Source: Luteibacter sp. Sphag1AF (GTDB taxonomy: Bacteria > Pseudomonadota > Gammaproteobacteria > Xanthomonadales > Rhodanobacteraceae). From it: a stretch of 64,000 nucleotides of DNA. Each line of letters begins with the position of its first letter. Within the stretch, counting starts at the first letter, position 1. Location: assembly GCF_014192715.1 (NCBI RefSeq), contig NZ_JACHYH010000002.1, forward strand, positions 310,001 through 374,000. Direction: 5' to 3'. The position numbers and the translations under genes are program-made. Positions 1 through 23,909 of the stretch are shown here, one piece after another. A model generated the notes under the pieces. It saw nothing but the letters and a program-made list of their open reading frames with translations, did not search any database and was not told the DNA's origin.

Positions 1-63
1 GCAGGACGCCAAATGATCAGCACAGGAACATGCGTCGTGACGACTAAGGCGGGCACTCGCTAA
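1..63 (+). CDS. virB7: 3' end of a gene upstream of virB8, probably virB7 (partial)
   Basis: A reading frame is open from the first base to a TAA at 61-63, and its last A is the first base of the virB8 ATG. In X-T4SS loci the gene directly before virB8 is virB7, a small outer-membrane lipoprotein that joins VirB9 and VirB10 in the core complex. Only about 20 codons are visible, with no diagnostic motif. The call rests on position and on the overlapping stop/start, as seen between the other virB genes here. Confidence 0.45.
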   Translation, partial: AGRQMISTGTCVVTTKAGTR

Positions 64-1073
64 TGCGCAACAAGAAATCCAGTCCGAATATCGACGCCGC
101 CATCTCGAAGTCTGTGAATTTCGAGCTGACCGTTGCCGATCTTGCCCGGCGCAGCGAGAAGCGCGCCTGGATGGTCGCCGGTGCGTCCGTCATCATGTCG
201 CTCATCCTCGTGGGCGGCTACTTCTACATGCTGCCCCTGAAGGAAAAGGTGCCGTACATCGTCATGGCTGATGCCTACACGGGCACCAGCTCGGTGTCGC
301 GGGTCACCGATGACGTGGTCAACCGCCGTATCAGCGCCAGCGAAGCCATCAACCGCAGCAACATCACCCATTTCGTGCTCGCCCGCGAGTCCTACGATGT
401 GGCCATGATCAACTTGCGCGACTGGGCCACGGTGCTCACGATGTCGTCGCCCAACGTCGCGGCCGCGTACACCAATCTGCACTCGTCGACCAACCCGAAC
501 AGCCCGTACAAGACCTACGGTCGTACGCAGGCCATCCGTGTTCGCATCCTGAGCATCGTGCTGATCGGCGGCGGTGACGGCACGGCGCCGAAGGGTGCCA
601 CGGTTCGCTTCCAGCGCAGCCTGTACAACAAGACCACCGGCATGACCACGCCGATGGATTCGAAGATCGCCACGATGGCGTTCTCCTACAAGCCGAACCT
701 CAAGATGGATGACCAGTACCGGGTTGAAAATCCGCTCGGCTTCCAGGTCAGCGACTACCGCGTCGACAACGATTACGGTACGGCCCCGCCGGAAGAAGTG
801 GCCCCCGCGCGCGATTCCAGCGCTGCCGCCGGGCTTGACCCGGATGCGATGGACGCCCCGGGCACCGGCGCGCCAGACGCTCAGGCACAGACGGGCGTAC
901 CGGCTTCGCCGATTCCCAATGACTCCGGCTACCCTGCCGCCGCGCAGGGTCAGGCACCAGCTGCGCCCACGTATCCGGCAGCAGCACCCGCACCGACCGC
1001 TGCACCGGGCGCCCAGGCTCCCACCGCACCTGCTACTGCGCCGCGTGGCGCCGCCAACGGAGGGCGTCGTTGA
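63..1073 (+). CDS. virB8: VirB8, inner-membrane scaffold of the type IV secretion system
   Basis: VirB8 is a bitopic inner-membrane protein that helps assemble the T4SS. The protein has 336 residues: a cytoplasmic N-terminus, one membrane segment at about residues 37-58 (starting WMVAGASVIMSL), then a periplasmic NTF2-like domain to about 235. The last 100 residues are an Ala/Pro/Gln-rich tail, longer than in classical VirB8 and probably disordered. The gene overlaps the upstream frame by one base and virB9 by one base, so the set looks translationally coupled. Identity follows from domain layout and from the virB8-9-10-11 order. Confidence 0.93.
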   Translation: MRNKKSSPNIDAAISKSVNFELTVADLARRSEKRAWMVAGASVIMSLILVGGYFYMLPLKEKVPYIVMADAYTGTSSVSRVTDDVVNRRISASEAINRSNITHFVLARESYDVAMINLRDWATVLTMSSPNVAAAYTNLHSSTNPNSPYKTYGRTQAIRVRILSIVLIGGGDGTAPKGATVRFQRSLYNKTTGMTTPMDSKIATMAFSYKPNLKMDDQYRVENPLGFQVSDYRVDNDYGTAPPEEVAPARDSSAAAGLDPDAMDAPGTGAPDAQAQTGVPASPIPNDSGYPAAAQGQAPAAPTYPAAAPAPTAAPGAQAPTAPATAPRGAANGGRR

Positions 1074-1831
1074 TGAATCGCTTGACTAAGGTTGGCCTCG
1101 CCTGCGTGCTTGGCCTCGCTGCCACCGGCGCGGCCACCGCGCAGGTGGTGCAGCCGTACGAGTATCAGCCCGATCACATCTATCAGGTGCGCGCCGGCCT
1201 GGGCATCACCACGCAGATCGAGCTCAGCCCGAACGAAAAGATCCTCGACTACAGCACTGGCTTCAGCAGTGGCTGGGATCTGACCCGTCGCGACAACGTC
1301 TTCTATGTGAAGCCGAAGAACGTGGACGTCGATACGAACATGATGATTCGTACCGCCACTCACTCCTACATCTTCGAGCTCAAAGTCGTCGCCACCGACT
1401 GGAAGACCCTGGATCAGGCGCGCCGCGCCGGCGTGCAGTACAAGATCCAGTTCACCTACCCATCTGACACCAGTTTTGTCAGCGAGCAGAAGAAGGTCGC
1501 CAAGACGGCAGAGCTCGACACGTCACTGGTGAAGGGCCGCGACTACAACTTCAATTACGACTTCGCCATGCGCCGCAAGACTGCGCCGTGGCTCGTACCG
1601 GTCAATGTTTACGACGACGGCCAGTTCACCTATATCAAAATGAGTGACCTGAAGCAGTTCCCGACCGGAAATTTCCCCACGGTGTACATGCGCGAGCGCG
1701 AGCACGGTGAAGACTCGGTAGTGAATACGACAGTCGAGGGCAACACCATTGTTGTCCATGGCACGTATCCATTCCTTGTCATCCGGCATGACAACAACGT
1801 TGTGGGTCTGCGAAGGAATACCAAAAAGTGA
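1073..1831 (+). CDS. virB9: VirB9, outer-membrane core complex subunit
   Basis: VirB9 forms the outer-membrane core with VirB7 and VirB10. The 252-residue protein starts with a signal peptide ending near residue 24 (TGAATAQVVQP). It then has the VirB9/CagX beta domains, including the conserved C-terminal stretch around NVYDDGQFTYIKM. A TTG lies one codon earlier, but the ATG at 1073 sits in a TGATG overlap with the virB8 stop and is the more natural start. The end overlaps the GTG start of virB10. Confidence 0.95.
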   Translation: MNRLTKVGLACVLGLAATGAATAQVVQPYEYQPDHIYQVRAGLGITTQIELSPNEKILDYSTGFSSGWDLTRRDNVFYVKPKNVDVDTNMMIRTATHSYIFELKVVATDWKTLDQARRAGVQYKIQFTYPSDTSFVSEQKKVAKTAELDTSLVKGRDYNFNYDFAMRRKTAPWLVPVNVYDDGQFTYIKMSDLKQFPTGNFPTVYMREREHGEDSVVNTTVEGNTIVVHGTYPFLVIRHDNNVVGLRRNTKK

Positions 1832-3129
1832 GCTCGAATACGCCCAATCACCCGGACGACGAAGCCGCAAACGGCCACACCTCGCCGTACGAAAACACGG
1901 CGCCGCAGCAGCCGCAGCAGCCTGATCCGCTGGCAAACAATCCGTACTCGGCGCAGCAGCGCCAGTCCGAGGCGCCCGATCTGGATGCCGGCGCGCCCCA
2001 GCTGGCTTCGTCGAACGACCTGCGCCGGATGAACCGTCGTGCGCTGGGCTTTCTCGCGGGCATCGTTGCGTTGCTTCTGTTCGCTGCTTTCTGGATGTTG
2101 AAAAGCGGCGAGTCGAAAACCGAAGCGCCGCAGAAGCCCCGCGAAGAAACGGTCAGTGTCCCCGAGGCACCGACGGCTCTTCCGCCTCCCCTGCCGCGCG
2201 TGTCGCAGCAGGCGCAGGCCATCCCGCTCGCTCCGCCTCCGCCGCTTCCCACCGATGCGCAGAAGCGTCCGCTCACCATGCCGCAGCAACCCCGCGGGCC
2301 GTCGCTCGTTGAGCGTCGCATCATGGAAGCGGAAGCCGGTGGTGGCGGTCAGCAGTACGCTGGCGGCGGCCAGGGTGCAGCGCCGGGCGGCATGCAGGCT
2401 CCGGGCGGCGCCTATGGCGGCATGATGGGCGGCCCCGGCGGCATGGGTCCGGGCGGCATGCTTCCCAACAACGGTGTGCCGGTCAATTCGGCCTACGGCC
2501 AGAAGCCCCTGCCGGAAGTGTCCAGCGCCGAACCGCTGACGCACCCGGACACCCTGATGCTGCGCGGCACATTTATCCGCTGCGTGCTTGAAACCCGCAT
2601 CATCACGGACATCCCGGGCTTCACGTCCTGCGTGGTGACCGAACCGGTGTATTCGTTTACCGGCAAGCGCCTGCTGTTGCCCAAGGGCTCCAAGGTGCTT
2701 GGCCGATACGAAAGCGAACCCAATGGCCCGCGCGTCGCGGTGATCTGGGACCGCATCGTGACGCCCACCGGCATCGACGTGAGCATGGCCAGCCCCGGCG
2801 TGGACACGCTGGGCGGTGCCGGCCATCCGGGCTACTACAACGCGCACTGGGGCAGCCGTATCGGCGCCGCCCTGCTCATCAGCATGCTCAGCGATGCATT
2901 CAAGTACGAGGCTGCCGAGCATGGTCCGAAGAACACCACCGTCAGCAATGGCGTGGTGACGCAGACTCCGTTTGAAAGCAACACCGCTTCCACCATGCAG
3001 ATGCTTGCGAACCAGGCCGTGCAGCGCGCAGCCAATCGACCGGCTACTGTCACGATCAACCAGGGCACCGTGCTTGCCATCTACGTCGCAAAAGACGTTG
3101 ATTTCAGCGGTGTCGTCGCACGTTACTGA
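1828..3129 (+). CDS. virB10: VirB10, energy-sensing trans-envelope core protein
   Basis: VirB10 spans from inner to outer membrane and links ATPase energy to the outer gate. The protein has 433 residues: a cytoplasmic Gln/Pro-rich N-terminus, one membrane helix at about 72-91 (LGFLAGIVALLLFAAFWML), a proline-rich periplasmic stretch, a Gly/Met-rich linker at about 165-220, and the TrbI/VirB10 beta-barrel domain to the end. The domain contains FTSCVVTEPVYS and LLPKGSKVLGRYES. It starts with GTG inside the virB9 stop (GTGA). Confidence 0.95.
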   Translation: MSSNTPNHPDDEAANGHTSPYENTAPQQPQQPDPLANNPYSAQQRQSEAPDLDAGAPQLASSNDLRRMNRRALGFLAGIVALLLFAAFWMLKSGESKTEAPQKPREETVSVPEAPTALPPPLPRVSQQAQAIPLAPPPPLPTDAQKRPLTMPQQPRGPSLVERRIMEAEAGGGGQQYAGGGQGAAPGGMQAPGGAYGGMMGGPGGMGPGGMLPNNGVPVNSAYGQKPLPEVSSAEPLTHPDTLMLRGTFIRCVLETRIITDIPGFTSCVVTEPVYSFTGKRLLLPKGSKVLGRYESEPNGPRVAVIWDRIVTPTGIDVSMASPGVDTLGGAGHPGYYNAHWGSRIGAALLISMLSDAFKYEAAEHGPKNTTVSNGVVTQTPFESNTASTMQMLANQAVQRAANRPATVTINQGTVLAIYVAKDVDFSGVVARY

Positions 3130-3141
3130 CAGGGAAATTTT

Positions 3142-4188
3142 TTGAGCATGTCCGACGCTACTGTTGCAGATGTTCCGAATGAATTTCTGGAATACCAGTA
3201 CGAAGTACTGGGAGTCCGGGATTTCATGGCGTCGCCCGACGTCACGGAAATCTGCATCAACAAGCCCGGCGAGCTGTATCTGGAAAGCCGCGGCGCCTGG
3301 CGCCGCGTGGAAGTGCCTTCGCTCACCTTCGAGCGCGCTCGCCAGTTCTGCACCGCCGTGGTGAACGAAAGCAATACCGGGCAGCGCATCACGGACGTGG
3401 ATCCGGTGGTGTCGCTAACCTTCCCGACCGGACAGCGTGCGCAGTTCGTGATCCCCCCGGCCTGCGAAGCGGGCCATGTGTCGATCACGATCCGCCTGCC
3501 GTCCAAACAGACCAAAACGTTGGCGCAATACCAGGAAGACGGCTTCTTCGACCAGATCGTCGAGGACGCCAATGTCATCAGCGAGCACGACCGCGAACTG
3601 CTGGATCTTCGTGGACAGCGCCGCTATGCCGACTTCTTCCGCAAGGCAGTGCTCAGCAAGAAAAACATCGTCGTTGCAGGAGCCACCGGCAGCGGTAAAA
3701 CCACTTTCATGAAGTCGCTGGTCCACCACATTCCGGACGACGAACGTCTGGTGACCATCGAAGACGCCAGGGAGCTTTTCATAGATCAACCCAACGTGGT
3801 GCACCTGCTCTACTCAAAAGGTGGACAGAGCGCCAGTAACGTCACCGCGAAAAGCTGCATGGAGGCCTGTCTGCGCATGAAGCCGGATCGGATCATCCTG
3901 GCCGAGCTTCGCGGTGACGAATCGTTCTATTTCATCCGTAACTGCGCATCCGGCCACCCGGGTTCGATCACAAGCTGTCACGCCGGCAGCATCGAGCAGA
4001 CCTGGGACCAGCTTGCGCTGATGGTGAAAGCTTCAACCGAGGGCTCAGGACTTGAGTTCGCGACGATCAAACGACTGTTGATGATGACCATCGACATCGT
4101 CGTCCATATCAAGGCGCATGCCGGGCGCCGCTACATCACCGGTATTGATTTCAACCCTGGCCGGGCTTTCGCTCCGACCGCAGGGTAA
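3142..4188 (+). CDS. virB11: VirB11, hexameric secretion ATPase
   Basis: VirB11 is the cytoplasmic AAA+-like ATPase that works with VirB4 and VirD4 in assembly and substrate transfer. The 348-residue protein has the Walker A motif GATGSGKTT at about residue 180, the Asp-box region (VTIEDARELF) and the His box (SCHAGS) near 275. Start is uncertain: TTG at 3142 is 6 bases after AGGGA, while an in-frame ATG at 3148 has longer spacing. The gene follows virB10 by 12 bases. Confidence 0.95.
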   Translation: MSMSDATVADVPNEFLEYQYEVLGVRDFMASPDVTEICINKPGELYLESRGAWRRVEVPSLTFERARQFCTAVVNESNTGQRITDVDPVVSLTFPTGQRAQFVIPPACEAGHVSITIRLPSKQTKTLAQYQEDGFFDQIVEDANVISEHDRELLDLRGQRRYADFFRKAVLSKKNIVVAGATGSGKTTFMKSLVHHIPDDERLVTIEDARELFIDQPNVVHLLYSKGGQSASNVTAKSCMEACLRMKPDRIILAELRGDESFYFIRNCASGHPGSITSCHAGSIEQTWDQLALMVKASTEGSGLEFATIKRLLMMTIDIVVHIKAHAGRRYITGIDFNPGRAFAPTAG

Positions 4189-4230
4189 CGACGACCGGCT
4201 ATGCCGGTCAGGAAGACAGGAGTTGTAAAG

Positions 4231-5256
4231 GTGCTACCAGGAATGGAAATGTTAGCGTGCCCCAACCTTGCCGTACCGGCCGAGGTGATGCAGCACGTCG
4301 TCGAAGTCGAGTCCAGCCGCAACCCGTTTGCGATTGGCGTCGTCGGCGCGCAGCTGGTCCGTCAGCCCAACAACCTCGACGAGGCTGTCGCCACCGTGCG
4401 CATGCTCGAAGAGAAGGGCTACAACTATTCCCTGGGTGTCGCGCAGGTCAATCGCGCCAACCTCAGCAAGTTCGGACTCGACTCGTACGAGAAGGCTTTC
4501 GACGTCTGCCCCAATCTTCAGGCGGGCTCGAAGATCCTTGCCCAGTGCTATGCAAGCGCTGGCGGCGACTGGGGCAAATCCTTCAGCTGTTACTACTCCG
4601 GCAACTTCACCACCGGCTATCAGGACGGTTACGTGAAGAAGGTGTTCGACTCGATGAGCCGTCAGGCTGCCATCGGCAACGCCTCGCCCATTCCTCTGCA
4701 ACTGGTCAGCGCAGCGCCCGGCGTGGGCTCACGCAATGCCAGACAGGTCACTACCCTCACCACCGACAACGCGGCCTACCGCGTGGCCATGCGCAGCGTC
4801 CTGGACGCCGCCGCATCCGCCACGATAGCCGTCGCCATGGCTCCTTCTGCCAGTAATGGCAGCACGACCGACGCAGGGCTGCCCACCGCGCAGATGCCTG
4901 TGGCGCCGTCCGCCATGGCAATGGCCCAGCCAGGCATGCCCCTCAGCATGCCCATGGGACAGATACAGAACACACCCATGAGTCCCGCCGCGGCAGCCGT
5001 TGCCGCGCAGACCATCGGGCCGATAGCGCAGGCAGCTTCCGCCCTCGCGAACCAGCCAACCATGGCTGGCACGCTGGGTTCGGAAGTATTCGTGCCGCAG
5101 GTTCGCGGCCCGAATGATCCTGTGGCTCCCGCCAACGCCCCCGTTGCAGCCATGCCCGTCAATACAGGCGTGGCCGCTCCGCAAATGGTGCAGGCACCGG
5201 CCGGCGATCAGGCCGACCTCCGCAGGGGAGCGCGCGATGACGCCTTTGTTTTCTGA
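4231..5256 (+). CDS. virB1: VirB1, lytic transglycosylase for T4SS assembly
   Basis: VirB1 locally opens the peptidoglycan for apparatus assembly. The first 150 residues form an SLT-type domain: a catalytic Glu in HVVEVESSRNPFAIGVVG, then YSLGVAQVNRANL, and Y-rich C-terminal SLT motifs (YYSGNF, GYVKKV). The second half is Ala/Met/Pro-rich and low in complexity. An in-frame ATG exists at 4201, but AGGAG at 4218-4222 points to the GTG at 4231. No clear signal peptide is visible. Confidence 0.9.
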   Translation: MLPGMEMLACPNLAVPAEVMQHVVEVESSRNPFAIGVVGAQLVRQPNNLDEAVATVRMLEEKGYNYSLGVAQVNRANLSKFGLDSYEKAFDVCPNLQAGSKILAQCYASAGGDWGKSFSCYYSGNFTTGYQDGYVKKVFDSMSRQAAIGNASPIPLQLVSAAPGVGSRNARQVTTLTTDNAAYRVAMRSVLDAAASATIAVAMAPSASNGSTTDAGLPTAQMPVAPSAMAMAQPGMPLSMPMGQIQNTPMSPAAAAVAAQTIGPIAQAASALANQPTMAGTLGSEVFVPQVRGPNDPVAPANAPVAAMPVNTGVAAPQMVQAPAGDQADLRRGARDDAFVF

Positions 5257-5470
5257 TCTTGCCGGCCATGTGTTTTCACGTGCCGGTCTTACCGTGTCTG
5301 CCAGTGCGCCCCGGCGCCTGTCGCGATGGCCTTCGGGCCGCAATATCGCTTCGGCATCATGCCGCAGCGAGTCGAAAGTGAACCAGGCTGCGTCACGCAC
5401 AGCCTTCCTCAGCGCGGCCGTCAGCCGACAGCCGCATCATGTTGAACCGTTAACTCAAGGAAATAACGAG

Positions 5471-5914
5471 ATGGCCCTGCCCTTCCTCAACGACTCCAAC
5501 GTTTCGTCCCAGACCTCGCTGTCGCGAAAGGTTGCCTTCTTCGCCATGATGGTAGCCATCATGCTTCCCGGCCTCGTGCTCGCCGATCCCGAAGTGGGCG
5601 TGGGCGAGACGTCCACGAAGGTCTGCGGCTTCTTCCAGAACATCAACTCGCTTCTGAACGCTGCCTCGATCGTCGTCGTGACCATCGCCGTGATCTTCTC
5701 CGGCTACCAGATCGCCTTCGCTCACAAGCGCATTGCTGACGTGGCTCCGGCTCTCATCGGCGGCGTGCTGATCGGTGCGGCAGCTCAGGTCGCCACCATG
5801 GTCGTCGGCGGTAGCGGTGGCGCTGCCAAGGCCTGCACGTCCACCAGCGGCGCGACCACGATGATCTTCGATCACCTGCACACGGCTGCTCAGTTCCTGC
5901 ACCTGTATGCATAA
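5471..5914 (+). CDS. virB2: VirB2, major pilin
   Basis: VirB2 is the pilus subunit. The 147-residue precursor has a long signal sequence (about residues 20-38, ending LPGLVLADP), then two hydrophobic helices (NAASIVVVTIAVIFSGYQIA and a second at about 95-120) separated by a short basic loop (AHKR), the usual pilin layout. A 214-base gap separates it from virB1; its frame stays open upstream, but AAGGA at 5458-5462 marks the ATG at 5471. The stop overlaps virB3. Confidence 0.92.
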   Translation: MALPFLNDSNVSSQTSLSRKVAFFAMMVAIMLPGLVLADPEVGVGETSTKVCGFFQNINSLLNAASIVVVTIAVIFSGYQIAFAHKRIADVAPALIGGVLIGAAAQVATMVVGGSGGAAKACTSTSGATTMIFDHLHTAAQFLHLYA

Positions 5915-6212
5915 GAACGCGCTGTTTCGCGGCTGCACCCGCCCGCCCATGTTCATGGGGGTGCCTTATGTGCCCTTCTTCGTGGGCGCGGGCAGCGGCT
6001 TGCTGATGGCGATGTACTTCAACATGTGGTTCCTGCTGCTCATTCCGATTTCGGTTTTCGTGATGCGTCAGATGGCGCGTTCCGACGAACTGATTTTCCG
6101 CCTGCTGGGCCTGCGCCTGCAGTTCCGCACGCGTGTTCGGAATATTCAGCAGCACGATGGGATGTGGGTGTTCACGCCAAACTCCTATCGTGAGCCACAG
6201 AAGAAAGCGTAA
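5907..6212 (+). CDS. virB3: VirB3, inner-membrane T4SS component
   Basis: VirB3 is a short inner-membrane protein that associates with VirB4. The 101-residue protein begins with the family pattern LFRGCTRPPMFMGVP and has two hydrophobic stretches (about 24-60: FFVGAGSGLLMAM, then FLLLIPISVFVM). It starts inside the end of virB2 (8-base overlap), so the two are probably co-translated. It is followed at once by a strong intrinsic-terminator hairpin. Confidence 0.93.
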   Translation: MHKNALFRGCTRPPMFMGVPYVPFFVGAGSGLLMAMYFNMWFLLLIPISVFVMRQMARSDELIFRLLGLRLQFRTRVRNIQQHDGMWVFTPNSYREPQKKA

Positions 6213-6278: not shown

Positions 6279-8747
6279 ATGTTTACTCCAGACGCACCCA
6301 TTGGCGAGTTTCTTTCACTCTCCACCCACGTATCGCCCACTGTTCTGAAAACGACCGGCGGCGACTTCGTGCTTGTATGGCGGCTGGGAGGCCTGCCCTT
6401 CGTGGGCCGTGAGGAATGGGATCTCGAACACCGCCACAACACGTTCAACCGCATGCTGCAGACGCTGCGTGCTCCCGATTTCGTGAACGTGGCCTTCTGG
6501 GTTCATGACGTGCGTCGTCGGCGCCAGATCAAGAACAAGAGCCACTTCAACCAGAAGTTCAACCAGACGATGTCCGACGCGTACTACGACGCGCTGTCGG
6601 CACAGAAGCTGATGCAGAACGAGCTGTACCTGACGATGATTTATCGCCCGGTGGTCGCCGGCAAGCGCTTCTCGGAGAAATCGGCCGACGTCAGCCAGCT
6701 CCAGGCCGAGCAGACCCAGGCGATTGCCACCATTCTCGAACTGGCCGGCAACGTCGAGGCCGTGCTCAAGGATTACGCGCCGTATCGTCTTGGCATGTAC
6801 GAGGCATCCAACGGCGTGGTGTTCTCAGAGACCCTGGAGTTCTACGGGTATCTGCTCAACCGCATTGACGAGCCCGTGCCGGTGCTGGATGCACCCGTGC
6901 ATAGCTACCTGCCGGTCAGCCGCCAGCGCTTCTCGTCCAAGACGGGCGACTTCGTGCTGACCACGCCCACCGGCGTGAACCACTTTGGCGCCATCCTCAA
7001 CATCAAGGAATACACCGAAGGCACCTACCCGGGCATCCTCAATGGCCTGAAGTATCTGGACTTCGAATACGTCATCACACACTCCTTCAGCCCGATGGGT
7101 CGCCAGGACGCACTCAAGGCGCTGGAACGCACCAAGGGCATGATGATTTCCTCGGGTGACAAGGCCGTCAGCCAGATCATCGAGCTGGACCAGGCAATGG
7201 ATCACCTGGCTTCGGGCAACTTCGTGCTCGGCTCGTACCACTTCTGCATCGCGATCTACGCCGCCAGCCAGGAACAGCTGTCGCAGCAGATCGCAGCAAC
7301 CCGCGCGGAGCTTTCCAACGCCGGCTTCGTGTCGACCAAGGAAGACCTCGCCGTCACCGCTGCGTTCTACTCGCAGTTCCCTGGAAACTGGAAGTACCGC
7401 ACGCGCATTGCCAACGTCAGTTCGCTGAATTTCCTTGGCCTGTCGCCGCTGCACAATTTCGCCACGGGCAAGAAGGAAAACAATCCCTGGGGCGATTGCG
7501 TCACCACGCTGCAGACCACCAACGGTCAGCCGTACTATTTCAATTTCCACGCCACCCACCCCGCCGAGAACTCGCTGGGTGAGAAGGCGATCGCCAACAC
7601 CATGGTCATCGGCAAATCCGGTACCGGTAAAACCGCGCTCATCAACTTCCTGCTGAGCCAGGTGCAGAAGCTGACGCCGTCCCCCACGATCTTCTTCTTC
7701 GACAAGGATCGCGGTGCGGAGATCTTCGTGCGCGCATGCGGCGGCAACTACCTGGCCCTGGAAAACGGACAGCCCACCGGCTTCAACCCGTTCCAGTGCG
7801 AGCGCAACGAAGCCAACGTGCAGTTCCTGGCAGATCTGGTGAAGGTGCTGGCAGGCAAGAGCGTCTACAGCTCGCGCGAAGAAGAAGACATCTTCCGTGC
7901 CGTGGAGAACATCCTCGACACCCCGATGCACCTGCGCAACATGACCAACTTCCAGAAGAGCCTGCCGAACCTGGGCGACGATGGCCTGTTCATCCGCATG
8001 CGCCGATGGACGGCTGGCAACTCGCTGGGCTGGGTGTTCGACAACCCGCGCGATACCGTCGACCTGAGCCGCGCGAACATCATCGGCTTCGACTACACCG
8101 ACATCATCGACAACCCCGAAGTACGCGCCCCGGTCATCAACTACCTGCTTCACCGCCTCGAAGCGCTGATCGACGGTCGCCCGCTCATCTACGTGATGGA
8201 TGAGTTCTGGAAAATCCTGGACGGCAAGGGCGGCCTCAAAGAGTTCGCCAAGAACAAGCAGAAAACCATCCGTAAGCAGAATGGTCTGGGCATCTTCGCC
8301 ACGCAGAGCCCGGAAGACGCGCTGGCCAGCGACATCGCAGCGGCACTGATCGAACAGACCGCCACGATGATCCTGCTGCCCAACCCGAACGCAAGCCGCG
8401 AAGACTACATCGAAGGCCTGAAGCTGACGGAAGCGGAGTATCAGGTGGTGGTCAGCCTCGACGAGCGCTCGCGCTGCTTCCTCGTAAAGCAGGGCCATGC
8501 GTCATCGGTGTGCCAGCTCAACCTGCGCGGCATGGACGACTCGCTGGCCGTGATCTCCGCGTCCACCGACAACATCGAAATCATGCACGACATTCTGCGC
8601 GAACGCGCAGCGGCCGAAGGCGTACCAGCCGACGATCTTCGCCCGGAACAGTGGCTGGAAGCGTTCTACGAGAATCGCAAGGGCAGCGGAAAGAAGCCCA
8701 CCAAGCCTACTCAATCTGCACAGCCGACCCGTTCGGCCGCGGTCTGA
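6279..8747 (+). CDS. virB4: VirB4, T4SS ATPase
   Basis: VirB4 is the large conserved ATPase that energises pilus biogenesis and secretion. The 822-residue protein has the CagE/TrbE/VirB N-terminal domain, a Walker A GKSGTGKTALIN near residue 446, a Walker B LIYVMDEFWKIL near 640, and the conserved FATQSPEDAL segment near 675. The length is normal for the family. The last 30 residues are Lys/Thr/Pro-rich. It sits downstream of the terminator hairpin at 6226-6254. Confidence 0.96.
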   Translation: MFTPDAPIGEFLSLSTHVSPTVLKTTGGDFVLVWRLGGLPFVGREEWDLEHRHNTFNRMLQTLRAPDFVNVAFWVHDVRRRRQIKNKSHFNQKFNQTMSDAYYDALSAQKLMQNELYLTMIYRPVVAGKRFSEKSADVSQLQAEQTQAIATILELAGNVEAVLKDYAPYRLGMYEASNGVVFSETLEFYGYLLNRIDEPVPVLDAPVHSYLPVSRQRFSSKTGDFVLTTPTGVNHFGAILNIKEYTEGTYPGILNGLKYLDFEYVITHSFSPMGRQDALKALERTKGMMISSGDKAVSQIIELDQAMDHLASGNFVLGSYHFCIAIYAASQEQLSQQIAATRAELSNAGFVSTKEDLAVTAAFYSQFPGNWKYRTRIANVSSLNFLGLSPLHNFATGKKENNPWGDCVTTLQTTNGQPYYFNFHATHPAENSLGEKAIANTMVIGKSGTGKTALINFLLSQVQKLTPSPTIFFFDKDRGAEIFVRACGGNYLALENGQPTGFNPFQCERNEANVQFLADLVKVLAGKSVYSSREEEDIFRAVENILDTPMHLRNMTNFQKSLPNLGDDGLFIRMRRWTAGNSLGWVFDNPRDTVDLSRANIIGFDYTDIIDNPEVRAPVINYLLHRLEALIDGRPLIYVMDEFWKILDGKGGLKEFAKNKQKTIRKQNGLGIFATQSPEDALASDIAAALIEQTATMILLPNPNASREDYIEGLKLTEAEYQVVVSLDERSRCFLVKQGHASSVCQLNLRGMDDSLAVISASTDNIEIMHDILRERAAAEGVPADDLRPEQWLEAFYENRKGSGKKPTKPTQSAQPTRSAAV

Positions 8748-8775
8748 CCCGTTCGCCATGAAGATGGAGAATCCC

Positions 8776-12120: not shown

Positions 12121-12123
12121 TAA

Positions 12124-12887: not shown

Positions 12888-13005
12888 TAACCCGAACTGA
12901 ATCCTGTCAACGCGGCCTCATTCATCCGTGACGTCTTCTGCTAGAAAGGACGACTCAGTACGCACCCCAAACTGGCGTTTTGCTTGCCTCAGGAATTCCG
13001 TCCCC

Positions 13006-14007: not shown

Positions 14008-14093
14008 GATGACATTGCCGGACAGGAAGGCCGGTGCAAGACAGGCGCAGCGAACGCGCCGACATGTTGTGGATGGTCAAACAGGAGTTACAC

Positions 14094-15383: not shown

Positions 15384-15430
15384 ATCGCATGAGTGCGGCA
15401 GCTACGCGTAGCGCCGCGAAGGGAGTTGTC

Positions 15431-16012
15431 ATGAAATCAGTTATGCAAACCGGCTTGCTCGCGTTGTGCCTTCTGGCCAGCGGCGCGCATGCCGCCGCTG
15501 CAAAGGAAACGGCCGAGTCAGCCCGCGCGCGTCTTGCGGGCATGGCGCCGTCCGCGAACATCCAGTGCACCACCGGCAGTCACGGATTCGTGGAATGCAC
15601 GGCCGATGGTTTCGACATCGCATTCTCCGACTGCAATGCCGATACCAGCTACGGCAGCATCATGGCCGACAAGAGCGTGACGCTCAGCGACGCCATTGAT
15701 GGCAAGGGCAAGAAAGCCATTGCCGCCCTGCCCCACGACCAGTTCGTCTGCATCGCGGCCACGGCCACGAAAAACGACATTCAACGCTACTACGTCAAGG
15801 CGCTTCCCACCGACATCGTCGACAGCTGCAAAGGCAGCGACCTGTGCAAGAGCTACAACGCACAGCCCGTGCAATGGCTTGGCCCCAGAACGGGCAAGGC
15901 ATGCCAGCACGACAGCCACGGCAATTACATCGGTGATTGCGCGTCGGGCTGGGTCGACAAGGACGACGTGGAGGCTTTCTCCATGGGTCTTAAAACCATT
16001 GGCGGGGAGTAA
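15431..16012 (+). CDS. Candidate immunity protein for the NlpC/P60-like effector
   Basis: The 193-residue protein has a signal peptide (MKSVMQTGLLALCLLASGAHA) and six or more cysteines (CTTGSHGFVEC, DSCKGSDLCKSY), so it is probably periplasmic and disulfide-bonded. The frame is open from 15380, overlapping the previous stop, but GGGAG at 15421-15425 and the signal peptide favour 15431. It ends three bases before the start of the peptidase effector, the usual spacing for X-Tfi/X-Tfe pairs. I do not recognise the family, so the role is inferred from position and export signal. Confidence 0.7.
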   Translation: MKSVMQTGLLALCLLASGAHAAAAKETAESARARLAGMAPSANIQCTTGSHGFVECTADGFDIAFSDCNADTSYGSIMADKSVTLSDAIDGKGKKAIAALPHDQFVCIAATATKNDIQRYYVKALPTDIVDSCKGSDLCKSYNAQPVQWLGPRTGKACQHDSHGNYIGDCASGWVDKDDVEAFSMGLKTIGGE

Positions 16013-17389: not shown

Positions 17390-17552
17390 ATGTGACGTGT
17401 CCATCGACCACGCCTCGAAGGCTGTTCATGACCAGCAAGGGACTGACAATGCCGTTCACCGCTTTCCGGGTGCCCTCCGGGGCAACCCCGGCGCTTTGCG
17501 GCGCGTCGAGCGACGCGCCTCATCTGCTCAATCCATTTCGAGGATGGCCAAC

Positions 17553-18137
17553 ATGACCCGCCGGATCACCTGTGCGCTGGCCCTGTTACTGGCCCTGACC
17601 ACCACCGCCTTTGGATCGACCATGAAAAAGCCCGACATCAAGAAGAACCCGCAGCCGCGCATGCGCTACGACATCACCGTGACGGTGGATGGCGCGCCGG
17701 CCACGTTTGATCGTGTGGAAGGCTCCGTCGACTACGTCGTCAAAAACGAAGAATGCGTGCCGCTCACGCCCATCGCAGGCGCCCGCGTGCGTCCCGAAGA
17801 ACGCGTGCCGCTGGAGCTGACCCACGCCGGCGGCAACGTTTACCGCGGCGTGATCTATGCCGATCAGTTTGTTGATGAAGATTACTTCGGCCGTGGCGTC
17901 TGCCATTGGGGCATAGTGGGCGCTGCCGCGCGCCTGAAAGCAAATCAGGTGACCATCAGTGCCGCCCTGTACGGCAACGACATACTCGCATCGGGCAGCA
18001 ACACCCGCTACTACGCCAACCGAACCTTCCAGGTCCCCATGGAGCTGCTGGATAACGGCGAGCCGGCACGCGCGAACTTCAAAGAACCTGGGCAGACGTT
18101 CTCGGTGACGCTCAAGGCTGAGGAGCGCACCCCATGA
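17553..18137 (+). CDS. Candidate immunity protein for the lipase effector
   Basis: The 194-residue protein has a signal peptide (MTRRITCALALLLALTTTAFGS) and a beta-rich body with MRYDITVTVDGAP, YRGVIYADQFVDEDYFGRGVCHWG and TRYYANRTFQVPMELL. GAGGA at 17540-17544 selects the ATG at 17553; the frame is open upstream without a good start. Its last bases overlap the ATG of the lipase effector (ATGA), so the pair is coupled. X. citri lipase effectors have immunity proteins encoded in the same place. Family not recognised. Confidence 0.7.
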   Translation: MTRRITCALALLLALTTTAFGSTMKKPDIKKNPQPRMRYDITVTVDGAPATFDRVEGSVDYVVKNEECVPLTPIAGARVRPEERVPLELTHAGGNVYRGVIYADQFVDEDYFGRGVCHWGIVGAAARLKANQVTISAALYGNDILASGSNTRYYANRTFQVPMELLDNGEPARANFKEPGQTFSVTLKAEERTP

Positions 18138-19579
18138 CCGTATCAACCACCGACTATGCGCTGCTGGCGCAGAACTCGTACCAGACACCGGTCGTCGACA
18201 AGCTCGTCAAGCTCAACGGCGTGGAATACACGACTCTCGCAGCGGCAGACAATCCGCACACCGGCTTTCAGGCAACAGCATATCGCCGGGAAGATACCGG
18301 TGAGGTCGTGATCGCGTACCGCGGCACCGAGTTTGACCGCGAACCCGTGCACGATGGTGGCGTGGATGCAGGCATGGTACTCACCGGCTTCAACGCGCAG
18401 GCACCGGACGCTATCGCCTTTACCGAAAAGGTCATGGAAAAGGCCAAGTTCCTCGCCGAAACGCGCGGCCAGCCGCTGGACGTCACGGTGACCGGCCACT
18501 CCCTGGGCGGCACACTGGCCGAGATCAACGCGTCGCGCTTTCACCTCAAGGGCGAAACGTTCAATGCGTATGGCGCGGCTGGCCTGCTGCACGGCGTGCC
18601 GGAGGGCGGCAATCAGGTCATCGACCATGTACGTGCGGGCGATCTGGTCAGCGCGGCGAGCCCGCATTTTGGCGAAGTGCGCGTCTACGCGGCCCAGCAG
18701 GACATCGACACGCTGAGCAAGGCAGGCTACCGCGACGACAGCGGCCCGCTGAGCCTGCGCAATCCGCTGAAAGCCACCGACTTCAGTGCGCACGCGATGG
18801 ACAACTTCGTGCCCAACAGTGAAACCCTGGGCAAGAGCATCATCAGCCCGGAAGGTCAGGCGCTGTACGAAGAACATAAAGGGATGGTCGATCGCTACCG
18901 CGACGACGTGCGCGACATCCGCACCACGATCTCGGCGCCATGGGAAATACCCAAAGCCATCGTCCATACCGTGCAGGAAGTTGGCCACAACGTGGCGGAG
19001 AAAGTGGAAGAAGGTTTCCACGCGGTAGAGAAAGCCGCCAGCCACGCCGTTCACGAAGTGGGTGAAACACTCAGCCACGTTGGCCACGAGATTTCCGAGA
19101 AGGCGTCCAGTGCGTGGAACACCATCACTCATCCGGGCTCCTGGTTTGACGACAAACCGAAAGTCGCGGAAGCCACGCGCCTGGATCAGCCCAACCATCC
19201 CGACCACGCCCTTTTTCAGCAAGCCCGTGGCGGCGTGCACGAGCTGGATGCAGCTCATCAACGCACACCCGACCAGCGTAGCGACAACCTGGCCGCTTCG
19301 CTGACGGTTGCGGCACGCCGTGATGGCCTGACCCGCATTGACCACGTAACCCTCAGCGACGACGCATCCCGGACGTACGCCGTCCAGGGCGACATGCAGT
19401 CGCCGCTGAAACGCGTGGCCGATGTGTCCACGCAGGAGGCGGTGGCCACGTCCGTCGACAAGAGCAGTGCGAACTGGAACCAGGTGGCTGAGCAGAACCA
19501 GCAGGCGCATGCGCAGCTTGCCAGGCAGAACGAACAACAGGCATCGGTACAGCGATCCAGCCCCATGCCGGGGCAGTAA
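18134..19579 (+). CDS. X-T4SS effector: class-3-like lipase/phospholipase with XVIPCD
   Basis: Predicted to attack membrane lipids of target cells. The 481-residue protein has an alpha/beta-hydrolase domain in the first 230 residues, with EVVIAYRGTEFD and the nucleophile elbow GHSLGG (Ser near residue 123). Residues about 265-345 form an amphipathic, Val/His/Glu-rich helical region with repeats of the type VGHNVAEKVEEGFHAVEK. An XVIPCD follows from about 349 (DQPNHPDHALFQQARGGVHE, GLTRIDHVTLS) and a Gln-rich tail. There is no peptidoglycan-binding domain, consistent with a membrane target. The start overlaps the candidate immunity gene. Confidence 0.92.
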   Translation: MTVSTTDYALLAQNSYQTPVVDKLVKLNGVEYTTLAAADNPHTGFQATAYRREDTGEVVIAYRGTEFDREPVHDGGVDAGMVLTGFNAQAPDAIAFTEKVMEKAKFLAETRGQPLDVTVTGHSLGGTLAEINASRFHLKGETFNAYGAAGLLHGVPEGGNQVIDHVRAGDLVSAASPHFGEVRVYAAQQDIDTLSKAGYRDDSGPLSLRNPLKATDFSAHAMDNFVPNSETLGKSIISPEGQALYEEHKGMVDRYRDDVRDIRTTISAPWEIPKAIVHTVQEVGHNVAEKVEEGFHAVEKAASHAVHEVGETLSHVGHEISEKASSAWNTITHPGSWFDDKPKVAEATRLDQPNHPDHALFQQARGGVHELDAAHQRTPDQRSDNLAASLTVAARRDGLTRIDHVTLSDDASRTYAVQGDMQSPLKRVADVSTQEAVATSVDKSSANWNQVAEQNQQAHAQLARQNEQQASVQRSSPMPGQ

Positions 19580-19660: not shown

Positions 19661-19981
19661 ATGAAGCGCTGGATGTTTGCTTTGTGTTTTGTTCTGTTTT
19701 TCATTGCTGACGCCCATGCGCAGCTGACGTATCGCAACAATGATCCGTTCGTTTTCTGCCGTTATGGCCAGAAAAACCCTGATAAGTGCTGGCAGCCTCT
19801 GCCGCCTTACACAGGACCCTACATGATTAGCGCCTGGTGCGAACCCAACCCCTACGGCAAGGAATGGACCGCCGATGATTACGCATCCCTTGAGGAGTAC
19901 AAGTTTTATTGCCCGAAGGCTAAAAAAAGCGGATCGTGGACCGGCCCCGGCACAGGCGAACAGTCCCGCGGCATGCATTAA
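19661..19981 (+). CDS. Small exported Cys-containing protein, function unknown
   Basis: The 106-residue protein has a signal peptide (MKRWMFALCFVLFFIADAHAQ) and a short polar body with four cysteines (FCRYGQKNPDKCWQPL, SAWCEPNP, KFYCPK). A GGGGG element lies about 8 bases before the ATG. It lies between the lipase effector and virD4 and has no effector directly after it. It may be an orphan immunity protein or an accessory factor. I do not recognise the family. Confidence 0.6.
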   Translation: MKRWMFALCFVLFFIADAHAQLTYRNNDPFVFCRYGQKNPDKCWQPLPPYTGPYMISAWCEPNPYGKEWTADDYASLEEYKFYCPKAKKSGSWTGPGTGEQSRGMH

Positions 19982-20062
19982 TCTGCAACGTCACACGCGA
20001 TAACCGTCGCGTCATTACCGGAGCACATGCTCCGTGCACCACACGCACCAGGATAGATCGGC

Positions 20063-21748
20063 ATGAGTAAAAACAGGGGATATTGGGCAGCCGCCTTGCT
20101 GGCGGTTGCCCTGGTCGCGGGCAACTACCTTTCGGGCATTCTGATACTTACTTTCCTGAAGCGAACTGACGTTCCGCTTCAGTGGAATACGTATTGGCAG
20201 TACATCCGCGCCCTTGGTCGAGCCGATGTGCAGCACTACACGAAGCACATCCAGATGGCAGGCGCCATCGGCTTCCTGTTGCCGATCATCCTGTGGCTGG
20301 TGGTGCTGTATTTCATGACGCGCGAGAAAAAGCAGTCCATGCACGGCGATGCCCGCTTTGCGCGGGCCAGCGACCTGCGCGAAAAGGGCATGCTGAAAAC
20401 CTCGAAGAACGGCATCCTGGTCGGCAAGTTCAAGGGTGACCTGGTGCGCCTGAGCGGCCAGCAGTTCGTGATCCTCGCGGCCCCCACCCGCTCGGGAAAG
20501 GGCGTGGGCGTCGTGATCCCGAACCTGCTGGACTACCAGGAGTCCATCGTGGTCCTGGACATCAAGCAGGAAAACTTCGACCTCACCAGCGGTTGGCGCA
20601 AGAGCCAGGGGCAGGAAATTTTCCTGTTCAACCCGTTTGCGGAAGATCGCCGGACGCATCGCTGGAACCCACTGAGCTACGTGTCCAGCGACCCGGCGTT
20701 CCGCGTATCCGACCTGATGAGCATCGCCTCGATGCTGTACCCGGACGGCTCGGACGACCAGAAGTTCTGGGTCAGCCAGGCACGCAATGCGTTCATGGCC
20801 TTCTCGCTGTATCTGTTTGAAAAATGGGATGCCGATCAGAAGAACGATCTGCCCATGATCCTGCGCACGAAACCCACGCTGGGTGCGCTGTATCGACTGT
20901 CGTCCGGTGATGGCACCGATCTGCGCCAGCTCTACACCTGGCTGTCGCAACAGACCTTCCTCACCAGCAACGCACAGGCGGCCTTCGCGAACCTGCTGTC
21001 ACAGGCGAACGAAACCTTCTCTTCGATCCTTGGCACGTTCAAGGAACCGCTGAACGCCTGGATCAATCCGGTGCTTGAAGCGGCCACCAGCGCCGACGAT
21101 TTCCTGCTGACCGACGTGCGCCGCAAGCGCATGACGATCTACATCGGCATCCAGCCCAACAAGCTGGCCGAAAGTCGCCTCATCGTGAACCTGTTCTTCA
21201 GCCAGCTGATCAACCTCAACACCAAAGAGCTGCCGCAGAACAACCCGGAACTGAAGCATCAGTGCCTGCTGCTGATGGACGAATTTACCTCCATCGGCAA
21301 GGTCGAGATCATTGCCTCGGCCGTGTCATACATGGCCGGCTACAACATCCGCCTGCTGCCCATCATCCAGAGCATGGCCCAGTTGGATGCGACCTACGGC
21401 AAGGACGTGTCGCGCACCGTCATCACCAACCACGCCCTGCAGATTGTTTACGCACCGCGCGAACAGCAGGACGCCAACGATTATTCGGACATGCTCGGTT
21501 ACACGACTGTCCGCAAGCAAAACGTCACCCGCGGCAAGGGCCGCGGCGATGTTTCGCGCAGCGAGTCGGAAGAACGCCGCGCACTGATGCTCCCCCAGGA
21601 GCTGAAGGCCATGGGAACAGACACGGAAGTGTTCCTCTACGAAGGCATTCCACACCCGGTGAAATGCGACAAGATTCGCTACTACCAGGACAGCTATTTC
21701 ACATCCCGCCTGCTACCCAAGGTGGATGTACCCAAGCTGTCGGTCTGA
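20063..21748 (+). CDS. virD4: VirD4 coupling ATPase
   Basis: VirD4 is the membrane-bound receptor that recognises XVIPCD-bearing effectors and feeds them to the channel. The 561-residue protein has two N-terminal membrane segments (about 9-32 and 70-92), Walker A APTRSGKGVGVV near residue 142, Walker B LLLMDEFTSIGK near 405, and the TraG/VirD4 body. It is shorter than many conjugative VirD4 proteins and lacks a long C-terminal tail. It lies about 9 kb after virB6, inside the effector array, rather than next to the virB genes. Confidence 0.95.
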   Translation: MSKNRGYWAAALLAVALVAGNYLSGILILTFLKRTDVPLQWNTYWQYIRALGRADVQHYTKHIQMAGAIGFLLPIILWLVVLYFMTREKKQSMHGDARFARASDLREKGMLKTSKNGILVGKFKGDLVRLSGQQFVILAAPTRSGKGVGVVIPNLLDYQESIVVLDIKQENFDLTSGWRKSQGQEIFLFNPFAEDRRTHRWNPLSYVSSDPAFRVSDLMSIASMLYPDGSDDQKFWVSQARNAFMAFSLYLFEKWDADQKNDLPMILRTKPTLGALYRLSSGDGTDLRQLYTWLSQQTFLTSNAQAAFANLLSQANETFSSILGTFKEPLNAWINPVLEAATSADDFLLTDVRRKRMTIYIGIQPNKLAESRLIVNLFFSQLINLNTKELPQNNPELKHQCLLLMDEFTSIGKVEIIASAVSYMAGYNIRLLPIIQSMAQLDATYGKDVSRTVITNHALQIVYAPREQQDANDYSDMLGYTTVRKQNVTRGKGRGDVSRSESEERRALMLPQELKAMGTDTEVFLYEGIPHPVKCDKIRYYQDSYFTSRLLPKVDVPKLSV

Positions 21749-21792
21749 CCTTCCATACCAACCGTACCAAATGCACGATCAGGAGTTACATC

Positions 21793-22236
21793 ATGAAAAC
21801 GGTCAACAAACTCGCCATCGCGGTCGCTCTCGTCGTTTACGGCAGCGCCTCGTTTGCCGACGCGAGCCGCAGTCAGGAAATCAAGCAGGAAGCGCCCAAG
21901 GGCATCACGGCCGCGTTCTACGCGTGCATCACCAAAGCCAACGACCCGACGTCCAGTGGCGCCTGCCTTTCGGCAGAGAAAACCAGACAGGACGCACGAC
22001 TCAACACCACGTACAAGGCCCTGATGGCCAAGCTCACCGGCAAAGCCAAGGATGACCTGGTCAACGCCGAGCGCGCATGGGTGGATCTTGAGGACAAGAC
22101 CGGAAGGTTCGAGACCTCGCTATACGGCGACGAAACCGTCGCCGATCTGCAAGTGACCCAGAACGAAATCTTCCGCATCTGCGAACGCGCCAACGCCCTG
22201 GACAAGTACCTGTCCGTGGCGAACACGTTGCTCTGA
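21793..22236 (+). CDS. LprI/DUF1311-family exported protein, candidate immunity protein
   Basis: The 147-residue protein has a signal peptide (MKTVNKLAIAVALVVYGSASFA) and a DUF1311/LprI-like domain: CITKANDPTSSGACLSAEK, LNTTYKALMAKL, ERAWVDLEDKTGRF, and a C-terminal Cys (FRICERANALDKYL). Members of this family inhibit lysozymes. AGGAGT at 21781-21786 precedes the ATG. It ends 23 bases before the fourth effector gene, so it is the likely protector against that enzyme, which in turn suggests a muramidase activity. Confidence 0.82.
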   Translation: MKTVNKLAIAVALVVYGSASFADASRSQEIKQEAPKGITAAFYACITKANDPTSSGACLSAEKTRQDARLNTTYKALMAKLTGKAKDDLVNAERAWVDLEDKTGRFETSLYGDETVADLQVTQNEIFRICERANALDKYLSVANTLL

Positions 22237-22259
22237 TCCGAACTCAAAGGAATAACACC

Positions 22260-23831
22260 ATGCCAGGTCTTGATACCCATAACGCCGAGTCACTCACGGG
22301 CGCCACATACTTCGTCGTCGGTCGGGGCACCGAAGGCGGCGCCTCGTCCTACCATCTGTCCATCGCAGGCGTGACTGCCGGCACCAGCGATCCGAACTGG
22401 GGCAACACCAACAAGATCGTCGCCAACAGCGGCTATTCGCTCGGCACGATCCAGGTGGACCTCGGTCAGCGCGGCACCTGGGCGCTCGGCTCTGCCGATG
22501 GCGCCAAGCCCAAGCCCGGTGAAACCACTTACGTGGACGGCATCATCGAACAGTCCGGCAAGTACGCGAAGGACCATAACCTGCCCTTCCCGCAGGACAC
22601 CAAAGAACTCCGCCAGGATCTGCTGAGCCACGGCAACGGCCTGAAGGGCCGCACCACTCTGGACTTCATCGACACCGGCACGCGCGACAGCATCAACGCG
22701 TGGGCCTCGTCGCAGGACGGTCAGAAGTGGATTCACAAGAACATGGACTATCCGCAGGTCAAGGAAGCCACCCAGACCGCCATGGACATGCTGGACAAGT
22801 ACGGCAAGAACATCCCGGAAGACCGTCGCCTGGAAACCGTGGCCATCCTGGCCAAGACGGCCAACCAGATGCCGAACCAGCTGAAGTCCTTCCAGGACGT
22901 GATGGAAAAAGGCGGCGACTACGATGCTGTGCTGAAGCGCGCCAACGACCTGCACAAGGCCACCGGCTACTACGACGGCCCCAAGGCTGCCGCCATCGCC
23001 GAGGAATACAAGAACGCCTATAAAGACCCGGAAAAGGCTGCCGCGATGGATCGCGCGCATACCAAGGTCGGCGACCCGAACTTCGACCCGTCCAAAGCCG
23101 GCAACGATGCCGACATCAAGACGGCGCTCAAGGCCGTGGGCCAGGGCGGCCGCACGCACGCTCCGGCAGGCAATACGCTGCGCGAAGGTGCGCACGGTGA
23201 AAAGGTCACTGCCCTGCAGAACGACCTGGTCAAGCTCGGCTTCACCGATGCCAAGGGCCGCGATCTGCATCCGGACGGCGACTTCGGTCCCGGCACGAAG
23301 GCTGCCGTCGAGAAGTTCCAGCGCGCGCACGACATGAAGGTCGACGGTATCGTGGGCCCCAAAACCCTCGAAGCCGTGCAGAAGGCAGCCCATCCGCCGC
23401 AGCCGAGCCTCGCTGACCCGAAGAACCCGGGCAACGCGATGTACAACCAGGCACTGCAGAACGTGCAGGCCATCGACGCCGAGCGCGGCCGCAAGTCGGA
23501 CCAGATGTCCAACAACCTCGCCGGCTCGCTGGCCACCGCCGCCCGTGCACAAGGCTTGAGCAGCGTCGACCACGTGGTGATGAGCGACGACGGCAAGCGT
23601 GCCTTCGCGGTACAGGGCGACATGAACTCACCGCTCAAGCGCATCGCCGAAGTCAACGTCGCACAGTCCGTCGCCAAGCCGCTGGAACAGAGCAGCTCGG
23701 AGTTCCAGCAGGTCTCGCAGCAGCAGAGCCAGCAGCAGGCCAATACCCAGCAGCAACAGCAGGCCCCGCAGCAGCAACAGCAGCAGGCTCCGCAGCAACA
23801 GCAACAGCCTGCTCAGCCGGGCATGCACTAA
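22260..23831 (+). CDS. X-T4SS effector: lysozyme-like N-terminus, peptidoglycan-binding, XVIPCD
   Basis: The 523-residue protein has no signal peptide. Residues 1-290 form a helical domain that I cannot place in a named family; SGYSLGTIQVDLGQRG near residue 57 resembles the Ser-x-Gly-x-x-Gln signature of lysozyme-like folds, and the LprI-like neighbour supports a glycan-cutting role. A peptidoglycan-binding domain covers about 302-375 (GDFGPGTKAAVEKFQRAHDMK). The XVIPCD runs about 380-480 (GLSSVDHVVMSDDGKRAFAV), and the last 40 residues are almost all Gln with Ala and Pro. AAGGAAT at 22247-22253 is the ribosome site. Confidence 0.9.
   Translation: MPGLDTHNAESLTGATYFVVGRGTEGGASSYHLSIAGVTAGTSDPNWGNTNKIVANSGYSLGTIQVDLGQRGTWALGSADGAKPKPGETTYVDGIIEQSGKYAKDHNLPFPQDTKELRQDLLSHGNGLKGRTTLDFIDTGTRDSINAWASSQDGQKWIHKNMDYPQVKEATQTAMDMLDKYGKNIPEDRRLETVAILAKTANQMPNQLKSFQDVMEKGGDYDAVLKRANDLHKATGYYDGPKAAAIAEEYKNAYKDPEKAAAMDRAHTKVGDPNFDPSKAGNDADIKTALKAVGQGGRTHAPAGNTLREGAHGEKVTALQNDLVKLGFTDAKGRDLHPDGDFGPGTKAAVEKFQRAHDMKVDGIVGPKTLEAVQKAAHPPQPSLADPKNPGNAMYNQALQNVQAIDAERGRKSDQMSNNLAGSLATAARAQGLSSVDHVVMSDDGKRAFAVQGDMNSPLKRIAEVNVAQSVAKPLEQSSSEFQQVSQQQSQQQANTQQQQQAPQQQQQQAPQQQQQPAQPGMH
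23706..23816 (+). repeat. CAG/CAA repeat coding for the poly-Gln effector tail
   Basis: Runs of CAG and CAA with interspersed GCx and CCx codons encode the Gln-rich end of the fourth effector. The other effectors here have shorter Gln/Ala-rich ends. The tract is prone to length change by slippage. Confidence 0.85.
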
Positions 23832-23877
23832 AGCGAATCGTTCGGATGACCTCCTTGCAGGCATTCCGGACAAACAG

Positions 23878-23909
23878 GGCGACGGTCTCACGACCGTCGC
23901 CTTTTCTTT
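23878..23909 (+). terminator. Intrinsic terminator after the virD4-effector segment
   Basis: GGCGACGGTC pairs with GACCGTCGCC (10 bp, TCAC loop), followed by TTTTCTTT. It lies 46 bases after the fourth effector and is a strong plus-strand Rho-independent terminator. Confidence 0.88.

Follow-up and report, generated by a model that had tools for sequence, protein, structure and literature searches.

The window examined here, a 64,000-nucleotide stretch of DNA from Luteibacter sp. Sphag1AF (contig NZ_JACHYH010000002.1, positions 310,001 to 374,000), begins with a gene cluster that resembles the Xanthomonadales-like, bacteria-killing type IV secretion systems (X-T4SS). Open reading frames (ORFs) of the window were searched against Pfam, and matches were counted over the gathering cut-offs. 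The genes virB8, 9, 10, 11, 1, 2, 3, 4, 5 and 6 are co-directional and reach position 10950, and Pfam families were recognized for all but virB5. A first-pass annotation of this DNA had reported virB8-9-10-11-1-2-3-4-5-6 and virD4 in this order, which stands by Pfam, with virB5 placed by its position and its relatives. The gene list of that annotation was incomplete: virB7 lies just upstream, and we add DUF4189 genes at 10947-12673 and ORFs at 19661-19981 and 23972-24271, the last of which moves the end of the locus from 23909 to near 24271. Below, G and L numbers designate genomes and loci in our comparisons, and G000 is the genome of the window. The genes of the secretion machine are as follows.

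1..16, + strand: 3' end of virB7, the remainder being upstream (G000:C2:309477-310016, equal to L011:11477-12016)
63..1073, + strand: virB8, with a C-terminal extension of ~100 residues (Pfam PF04335, 2.1e-41)
1070..1831, + strand: virB9 (CagX; Pfam PF03524, 1.2e-49)
1828..3129, + strand: virB10 (TrbI; Pfam PF03743, 1.7e-49; VirB10 of PDB 6gyb, E 1.1e-118)
3142..4188, + strand: virB11 ATPase (T2SSE; Pfam PF00437, 2.6e-25)
4201..5256, + strand: virB1 lytic transglycosylase (SLT; Pfam PF01464, 2.8e-9)
5471..5914 (likely start), + strand: virB2 pilin (TrbC; Pfam PF04956, 1.3e-12 on ORF 5114-5914)
5907..6212, + strand: virB3 (Pfam PF05101, 5.5e-24)
6279..8747, + strand: virB4 ATPase (Pfam PF03135, 8.4e-53)
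8758..9666, + strand: virB5, minor pilin by position (slot and tblastn relatives; central Cys pair)
9760..10950, + strand: virB6 (TrbL; Pfam PF04610, 1.2e-27)
20063..21748, + strand: virD4 coupling protein (T4SS-DNA_transf; Pfam PF02534, 1.8e-111)

After virB6 come three DUF4189 genes and three immunity/effector pairs, then a small ORF, virD4, a pair formed by an LprI-family gene and a fourth effector, and the last small ORF. Genes overlap by 4 bases at virB6/DUF4189 copy a, effector 1/the ORF of immunity 2, and immunity 3/effector 3; such overlaps are common within operons. The virB5 ORF (8758-9666) has no match in the Pfam search, and its tblastn relatives occupy the virB5 slot at four of five same-genus loci (49-66% identity; none in G179) and also in G002 (51%).

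A passage of PMC6536674 prints four criteria for X-T4SSs, and the Luteibacter locus agrees with all four. Its location is chromosomal: the contig is 520 kb long, and mutS, a catalase gene and other chromosomal genes lie downstream. Ten ORFs sampled from the downstream flank (30.5-58.6 kb) are the usual genes of a chromosome, and nine of them have a Pfam family. Each of the twelve class A subunits is present, ten by Pfam, virB7 by a PDB match, and virB5 by position and relatives only. VirB7 is a 179-amino-acid lipoprotein with the lipobox LTGC, an AEIPL motif and an N0-type C-terminal domain. It matches the VirB7 chain of 6gyb (6gyb_a) with E 1.2e-38 over residues 12-132, a stretch that takes in the C-terminal domain, and 3ov5 with E 3.4e-23 over residues 54-131, and the N0 domain is recognized through these two matches; its score for the Pfam family TcpQ is 21.4 bits, under the cut-off of 27. 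Chains of 6gyb, which we take to be the X. citri core complex, are the best matches of both VirB7 and VirB10, and 3ov5 is presumably the VirB7 N0 domain. Finally, the XVIPCD profile (PF20410) has ten matches over its cut-off in the genome, of which four are in the window (E 2.8e-31 to 5.7e-37). The VirB8 extension, ~100 amino acids from residue 237, where the Pfam match ends, consists of 66% Ala, Gln, Gly and Pro; the corresponding share is 65-73% for the five longest entries in the X-T4SS table of the literature.

The four XVIPCD effectors are encoded at 14034-15383, 16016-17353 and 18134-19579, between virB6 and virD4, and at 22260-23831, after virD4. A candidate immunity gene lies directly upstream of each, and the starts of these candidates are signal-peptide-like as judged by eye. 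The first-pass annotation had placed the effectors and their candidate immunity genes between virB6 and virD4 and after it, as found here. The immunity ORF it gave for effector 4 (21726-22055) is out-of-frame, and the correct one is the LprI ORF at 21793-22236.

12928..14007 (likely start 13006), + strand: candidate immunity 1, an LprI module (Pfam PF07007, 8.5e-14) and another module that contains an acidic DxNxDGxxD loop (alignment)
14034..15383 (likely start 14094), + strand: effector 1, GH19, PG_binding_1 and XVIPCD (Pfam), a TfcB relative (PDB 7r6s, E 6.7e-105)
15380..16012 (likely start 15431), + strand: candidate immunity 2, signal-peptide-like start (position; relatives beside NlpC-type effectors)
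16016..17353, + strand: effector 2, NlpC/P60, PG_binding_1 and XVIPCD (Pfam)
17397..18137 (likely start 17553), + strand: candidate immunity 3 (relatives directly upstream of lipase effectors)
18134..19579, + strand: effector 3, Lipase_3 (Pfam PF01764, 1.8e-5) and XVIPCD (PF20410, 2.1e-35)
21793..22236, + strand: candidate immunity 4, LprI family (Pfam PF07007, 4.2e-11)
22260..23831, + strand: effector 4, chitosanase/lysozyme-like predicted N-domain, PG_binding_1 and XVIPCD

Gene set, XVIPCD effectors and published criteria all agree with the complete X-T4SS locus that had been proposed, and the XVIPCD profile search that the first-pass annotation had called for returned the four window proteins. 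We therefore take this locus, with a probability of roughly 0.93, to be a chromosomal X-T4SS of a Luteibacter species. By analogy with the characterized systems, the VirB machine would contact a neighbouring Gram-negative cell, while VirD4 would recognize the C-terminal XVIPCD of each effector and hand the effector to the channel. In the target periplasm, the GH19 lysozyme-like, NlpC/P60 peptidase-like and lysozyme/chitosanase-like enzymes would attack the cell wall, and the lipase effector would attack membrane lipid. The producer would be protected from lysis by its own enzymes through secreted immunity proteins, the gene for each lying immediately ahead of that for its effector.

The locus itself shows which genes are present and in what order, the signal domain, the synteny and the effector/immunity pairing; secretion, killing, substrate recognition and immunity are carried over to this strain from work on X. 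citri and S. maltophilia. Several points weigh against this assignment. The VirB7 motif is AEIPL, compared with the published [T/S]EIPL. Candidate immunity 2 has no Pfam family and no PDB match, and candidate immunity 3 has no Pfam family and one chance-level PDB row; because of this, the immunity role of both rests on position. Candidate immunity 1 was considered as a relative of XAC2610 (4qtq), and no such PDB row was returned, either for the single sequence at E<=0.1 or for a C-terminal profile at E<=10; its acidic DxNxDG loop is similar in kind to a published Ca-binding loop. The genome also holds a second X-T4SS-like locus (L154/L155, G000:C6:84.1-99.0 kb), and effectors could therefore be shared between machines. 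This locus, on contig C6, contains virB7, 8, 9, 10, 2, 3 and 4, a virB5-slot protein, virB6, two immunity-3-like genes, a lipase XVIPCD effector and virD4 (59%).

Two other explanations of the locus as a whole can be weighed against the assignment to X-T4SSs. The window locus could be real but silent or superseded, for example by the C6 locus, whose VirB4 is 79% identical to that of the window and which has its own virD4 and lipase effector. We consider this unlikely: all window genes are open and syntenic with those of relatives, and the C6 locus is less complete, because tblastn found no virB11 or virB1 in it; DUF4189 was not found there either. Alternatively, the machine might be a conjugation system that moves DNA, with XVIPCD proteins as passengers, as would suit class-A VirB/VirD4 proteins and the presence of a MobA/MobL relaxase (PF03389) in the same genome. 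This relaxase, the one genome match of its family, is on a different contig (C4, G000:C4:87526-88197), and PF03432 and PF08751 have no match in the draft genome. A relaxase and oriT next to the locus, which the first-pass annotation had named as a sign of conjugation, would change the assignment; none of the three relaxase families searched genome-wide adjoins the locus, other relaxase families and oriT lying outside the search. Together with the chromosomal genes of the sampled downstream flank and the four effector genes inside the locus, this makes conjugation very improbable.

Similar loci are widespread among relatives. In nine loci compared from the virB genes to virD4 (G033, G010, G047, G040, G002, G020 and G053 from virB8; G161 and G179 from virB4), virB6, DUF4189, three to five effectors and virD4 recur in the same order. 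Elsewhere, two effectors lie between virB6 and virD4 in G028 and G021, one in G022, and none in G031 and G005. XVIPCD proteins are present in 22 of 59 genomes of the family, in which multi-effector clusters are common. The effector array recurs in relatives and is therefore a shared family trait, so that the built-in array noted in the first-pass annotation is there as claimed, but is ordinary. The published X-T4SS table already lists Luteibacter, and the locus as a whole is likewise ordinary, because it is one more well-formed X-T4SS in a listed genus. A Luteibacter rhizovicinus locus (L157, likely strain LP_13_YM) has a virB4 93% identical to that of the window and shares the order virB6, DUF4189, immunity 1-3, effectors 1-3, orf106 and virD4. 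It differs in an extra composite immunity gene and an NNNPGNL-type effector after DUF4189, in having two stand-alone DUF4189 genes rather than three, and in a remote effector-4 relative on the opposite strand after virD4.

According to passages of PMC6536674 and PMC7286519, the X. citri X-T4SS has the same operon order, virB7-11 and virB1-6, followed by XAC2611, an immunity gene and an effector, all co-transcribed. In X. citri, however, virD4 precedes virB7 and the locus contains one effector, whereas the window virD4 is downstream and three effectors precede it. XAC2611 is in the same slot as the window DUF4189 genes, a likeness of position; literature passages on XAC2611 give expression and operon data and report no function. 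Effector 1, closely related to TfcB, matches 7r6s in two stretches, best over the GH19 domain, and 7r6s is TfcB, an effector of the killing T4SS of S. maltophilia, in passages of PMC11253643.

Two features of this locus are of particular interest, namely the DUF4189 slot and the pair formed by effector 4 and LprI. The DUF4189 region of the window contains the following elements.

10947..11429, + strand: DUF4189 copy a, signal-peptide-like start (Pfam PF13827, 1.4e-20)
11443..11485 (approximate limits), + strand: remnant of the 3' end of virB6, preceding copy b (tblastn and DNA comparison)
11486..11971, + strand: DUF4189 copy b (Pfam PF13827, 1.5e-21 on ORF 11366-11971)
~12148-12190, + strand: second remnant of the 3' end of virB6, preceding copy c (tblastn and DNA comparison)
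12191..12673, + strand: DUF4189 copy c, GTG start (Pfam PF13827, 1.5e-21 on ORF 12143-12673)

The three copies score 74-77 bits in the Pfam search (gathering cut-off 25), and the stop of virB6 overlaps the start of copy a. Copies b and c lie on a 705-bp head-to-tail duplication that is recent and 94% identical by self-BLAST. The virB6 remnants are ~45 bases long; tblastn matches to VirB6 residues 385-396 are weak (E 0.03 and 0.08), and the DNA match is clear on visual inspection, apart from a one-base shift. Three genomes from another family of the order (L160:2199-8067, L161:2407-6404 and L173:6573-11127) carry repeated units, each made of a longer C-terminal piece of virB6 and a DUF4189 gene. 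These repeats can be explained by tandem duplication, virB6 being a passenger, and need no further function. In a bolder reading, the repeated units permit cassette exchange, since recombination could swap VirB6 tails together with their partner. A same-genus genome has eleven tandem DUF4189 genes after virB6 (L112:14146-19998), with 31-70% mutual identity.

To determine how constant this slot is, we used 35 virB4 places detected at >=72% identity in 200 genomes of the order, two further matches (38%) being dropped; the window virB4 is 72-93% identical to the 34 others. For 30 of these 35 X-T4SS-type virB4 genes, a DUF4189 gene is located 2104-2384 bases downstream on the same strand. The five exceptions are those of the C6 locus, G212, G112, G166 and G019, and in G212 and G112 DUF4189 arrays adjoin a virB6 elsewhere. 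Between 1 and 11 copies follow virB6. Among the 200 genomes, DUF4189 is present in 34, XVIPCD in 36 (that of G060 being below the cut-off), and 32 genomes have the two together (Fisher p 2.7e-30, with no correction for kinship). DUF4189 occurs without XVIPCD in G188 and G233, and XVIPCD without DUF4189 in G019, G038, G060 and G203. In the 59 family genomes, 20 have DUF4189 and 19 have both. DUF4189 was rejected as an X-T4SS-only family, given that 50 of 398 phylum genomes carry it, and we claim the tie only inside the order.

DUF4189 is named in literature passages on Rv1813c and on mycobacterial plasmids, and in an expression table for Burkholderia; none of those found in open access ties DUF4189 to a T4SS. 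An integrative conjugative element appears elsewhere in the mycobacterial-plasmid paper, not tied to DUF4189 in the passage concerned. Rv1813c (DUF4189, PDB 7nhz) is a mycobacterial secreted protein that the passages do not mention together with a T4SS, and no open-access paper was found that joins it with type IV secretion. The slot thus holds a gene beside most of the X-T4SS virB6 genes examined to which these passages assign no function.

DUF4189 proteins may form an expandable immunity array or be an unnamed operon member. Immunity against cell-wall-cutting effectors has close to an even chance in our estimation. The arrays expand and diverge, and in five of six loci (L141, L142, L156, L157 and L165) a DUF4189 domain ends composites of ~300 residues encoded directly upstream of XVIPCD effectors that share one toxin domain; this count covers six loci, with the candidates L158 and L163 left out. 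In the sixth locus, however, two DUF4189 composites are not directly upstream of the effector, which is of another kind (L151). The composites score 33-51 bits for DUF4189 against 75-79 bits for the window copies, their toxin was not found in the window, and the stand-alone copies have no fixed effector partner. It is somewhat less probable that DUF4189 is a machine-linked operon member, such as a factor in the periplasm that acts on VirB6 or on the wall-cutting enzyme VirB1. Such a role would fit the constant slot, the 4-base overlap between virB6 and copy a, and the presence of DUF4189 also in L146 and L147, in which the stretch from virB6 to virD4 showed no XVIPCD gene. However, a copy number of 1-11 and the 31-70% identity within the G033 array, the sole one measured, are unlike a structural subunit, and the C6 locus, G166 and G019 are without DUF4189.

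As a tentative proposal, about which we are more doubtful than about either role taken singly, stand-alone DUF4189 would be an undescribed, near-constant X-T4SS companion directly after virB6, amplified by duplications beginning within the virB6 3' end, and a diversifying array of periplasmic inhibitors against wall-cutting enzymes, whether the cell's own, leaking or from rivals. Orphan immunity arrays beside contact-dependent inhibition systems offer a comparison.

The effectors of L141, L142, L156, L157 and L165 form a family with XVIPCD and an NNNPGNL motif, and have an upstream composite immunity-like protein ending in DUF4189. We also considered DUF4189 as the immunity of one lost effector. 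This idea is weakened by the finding of the NNNPGNL effector in two of the 12 loci compared (G161 and G010), and in neither the window nor the other nine, of which some are partial; with this distribution, loss and gain are indistinguishable.

Effector 4 has no recognized Pfam family at its N-terminus, and a comparison of its N-domain sequence with PDB gave only two chance-level rows. The predicted fold of this domain is chitosanase/lysozyme-like (GH46-like), a moderate match, and its residues E25 and D67 are invariant. All 40 of the 40 close relatives of effector 4 (L032-L071) are immediately preceded on the same strand by an LprI-like gene, versus 5 of the 38 remote ones (L072-L109), as counted with a profile seeded from the window immunity protein and built from matches in the same loci. 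XVIPCD is in the same frame as the effector 4 relative in 35 of the 40, using a six-sequence profile, and was not found in L061, L065, L067, L068 and L069. LprI is a lysozyme-inhibitor family, and LprI beside the predicted lysozyme-like effector would make a coherent toxin/immunity pair. Through this pairing, an effector domain that lacks a Pfam family acquires a probable enzyme type. A light search of literature passages linking LprI or lysozyme inhibitors with type IV secretion did not find the pair.

Two small ORFs complete the locus, neither of which has a match in the Pfam search.

19661..19981, + strand: small secreted-looking protein of 106 residues (orf106), recurrent in X-T4SS loci, where it precedes virD4 or follows DUF4189
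23972..24271, + strand: small secreted-looking protein after effector 4 (ORF)

In G021 (L149 and L124), two vir clusters are in tandem across the record start, the second without virB5 and virB6 in tblastn. Elsewhere, the Luteibacter genome has a third virD4-like gene (57% identity) and, ~1.4 kb away from it, a gene for an XVIPCD protein with a Tle1-like phospholipase domain (L168:4020-8915). XVIPCD proteins of equal length and score are found at the ends of contigs C2 and C5 (L170:4499-5296 and L171:4205-5002), and are probably a repeat that breaks the assembly.

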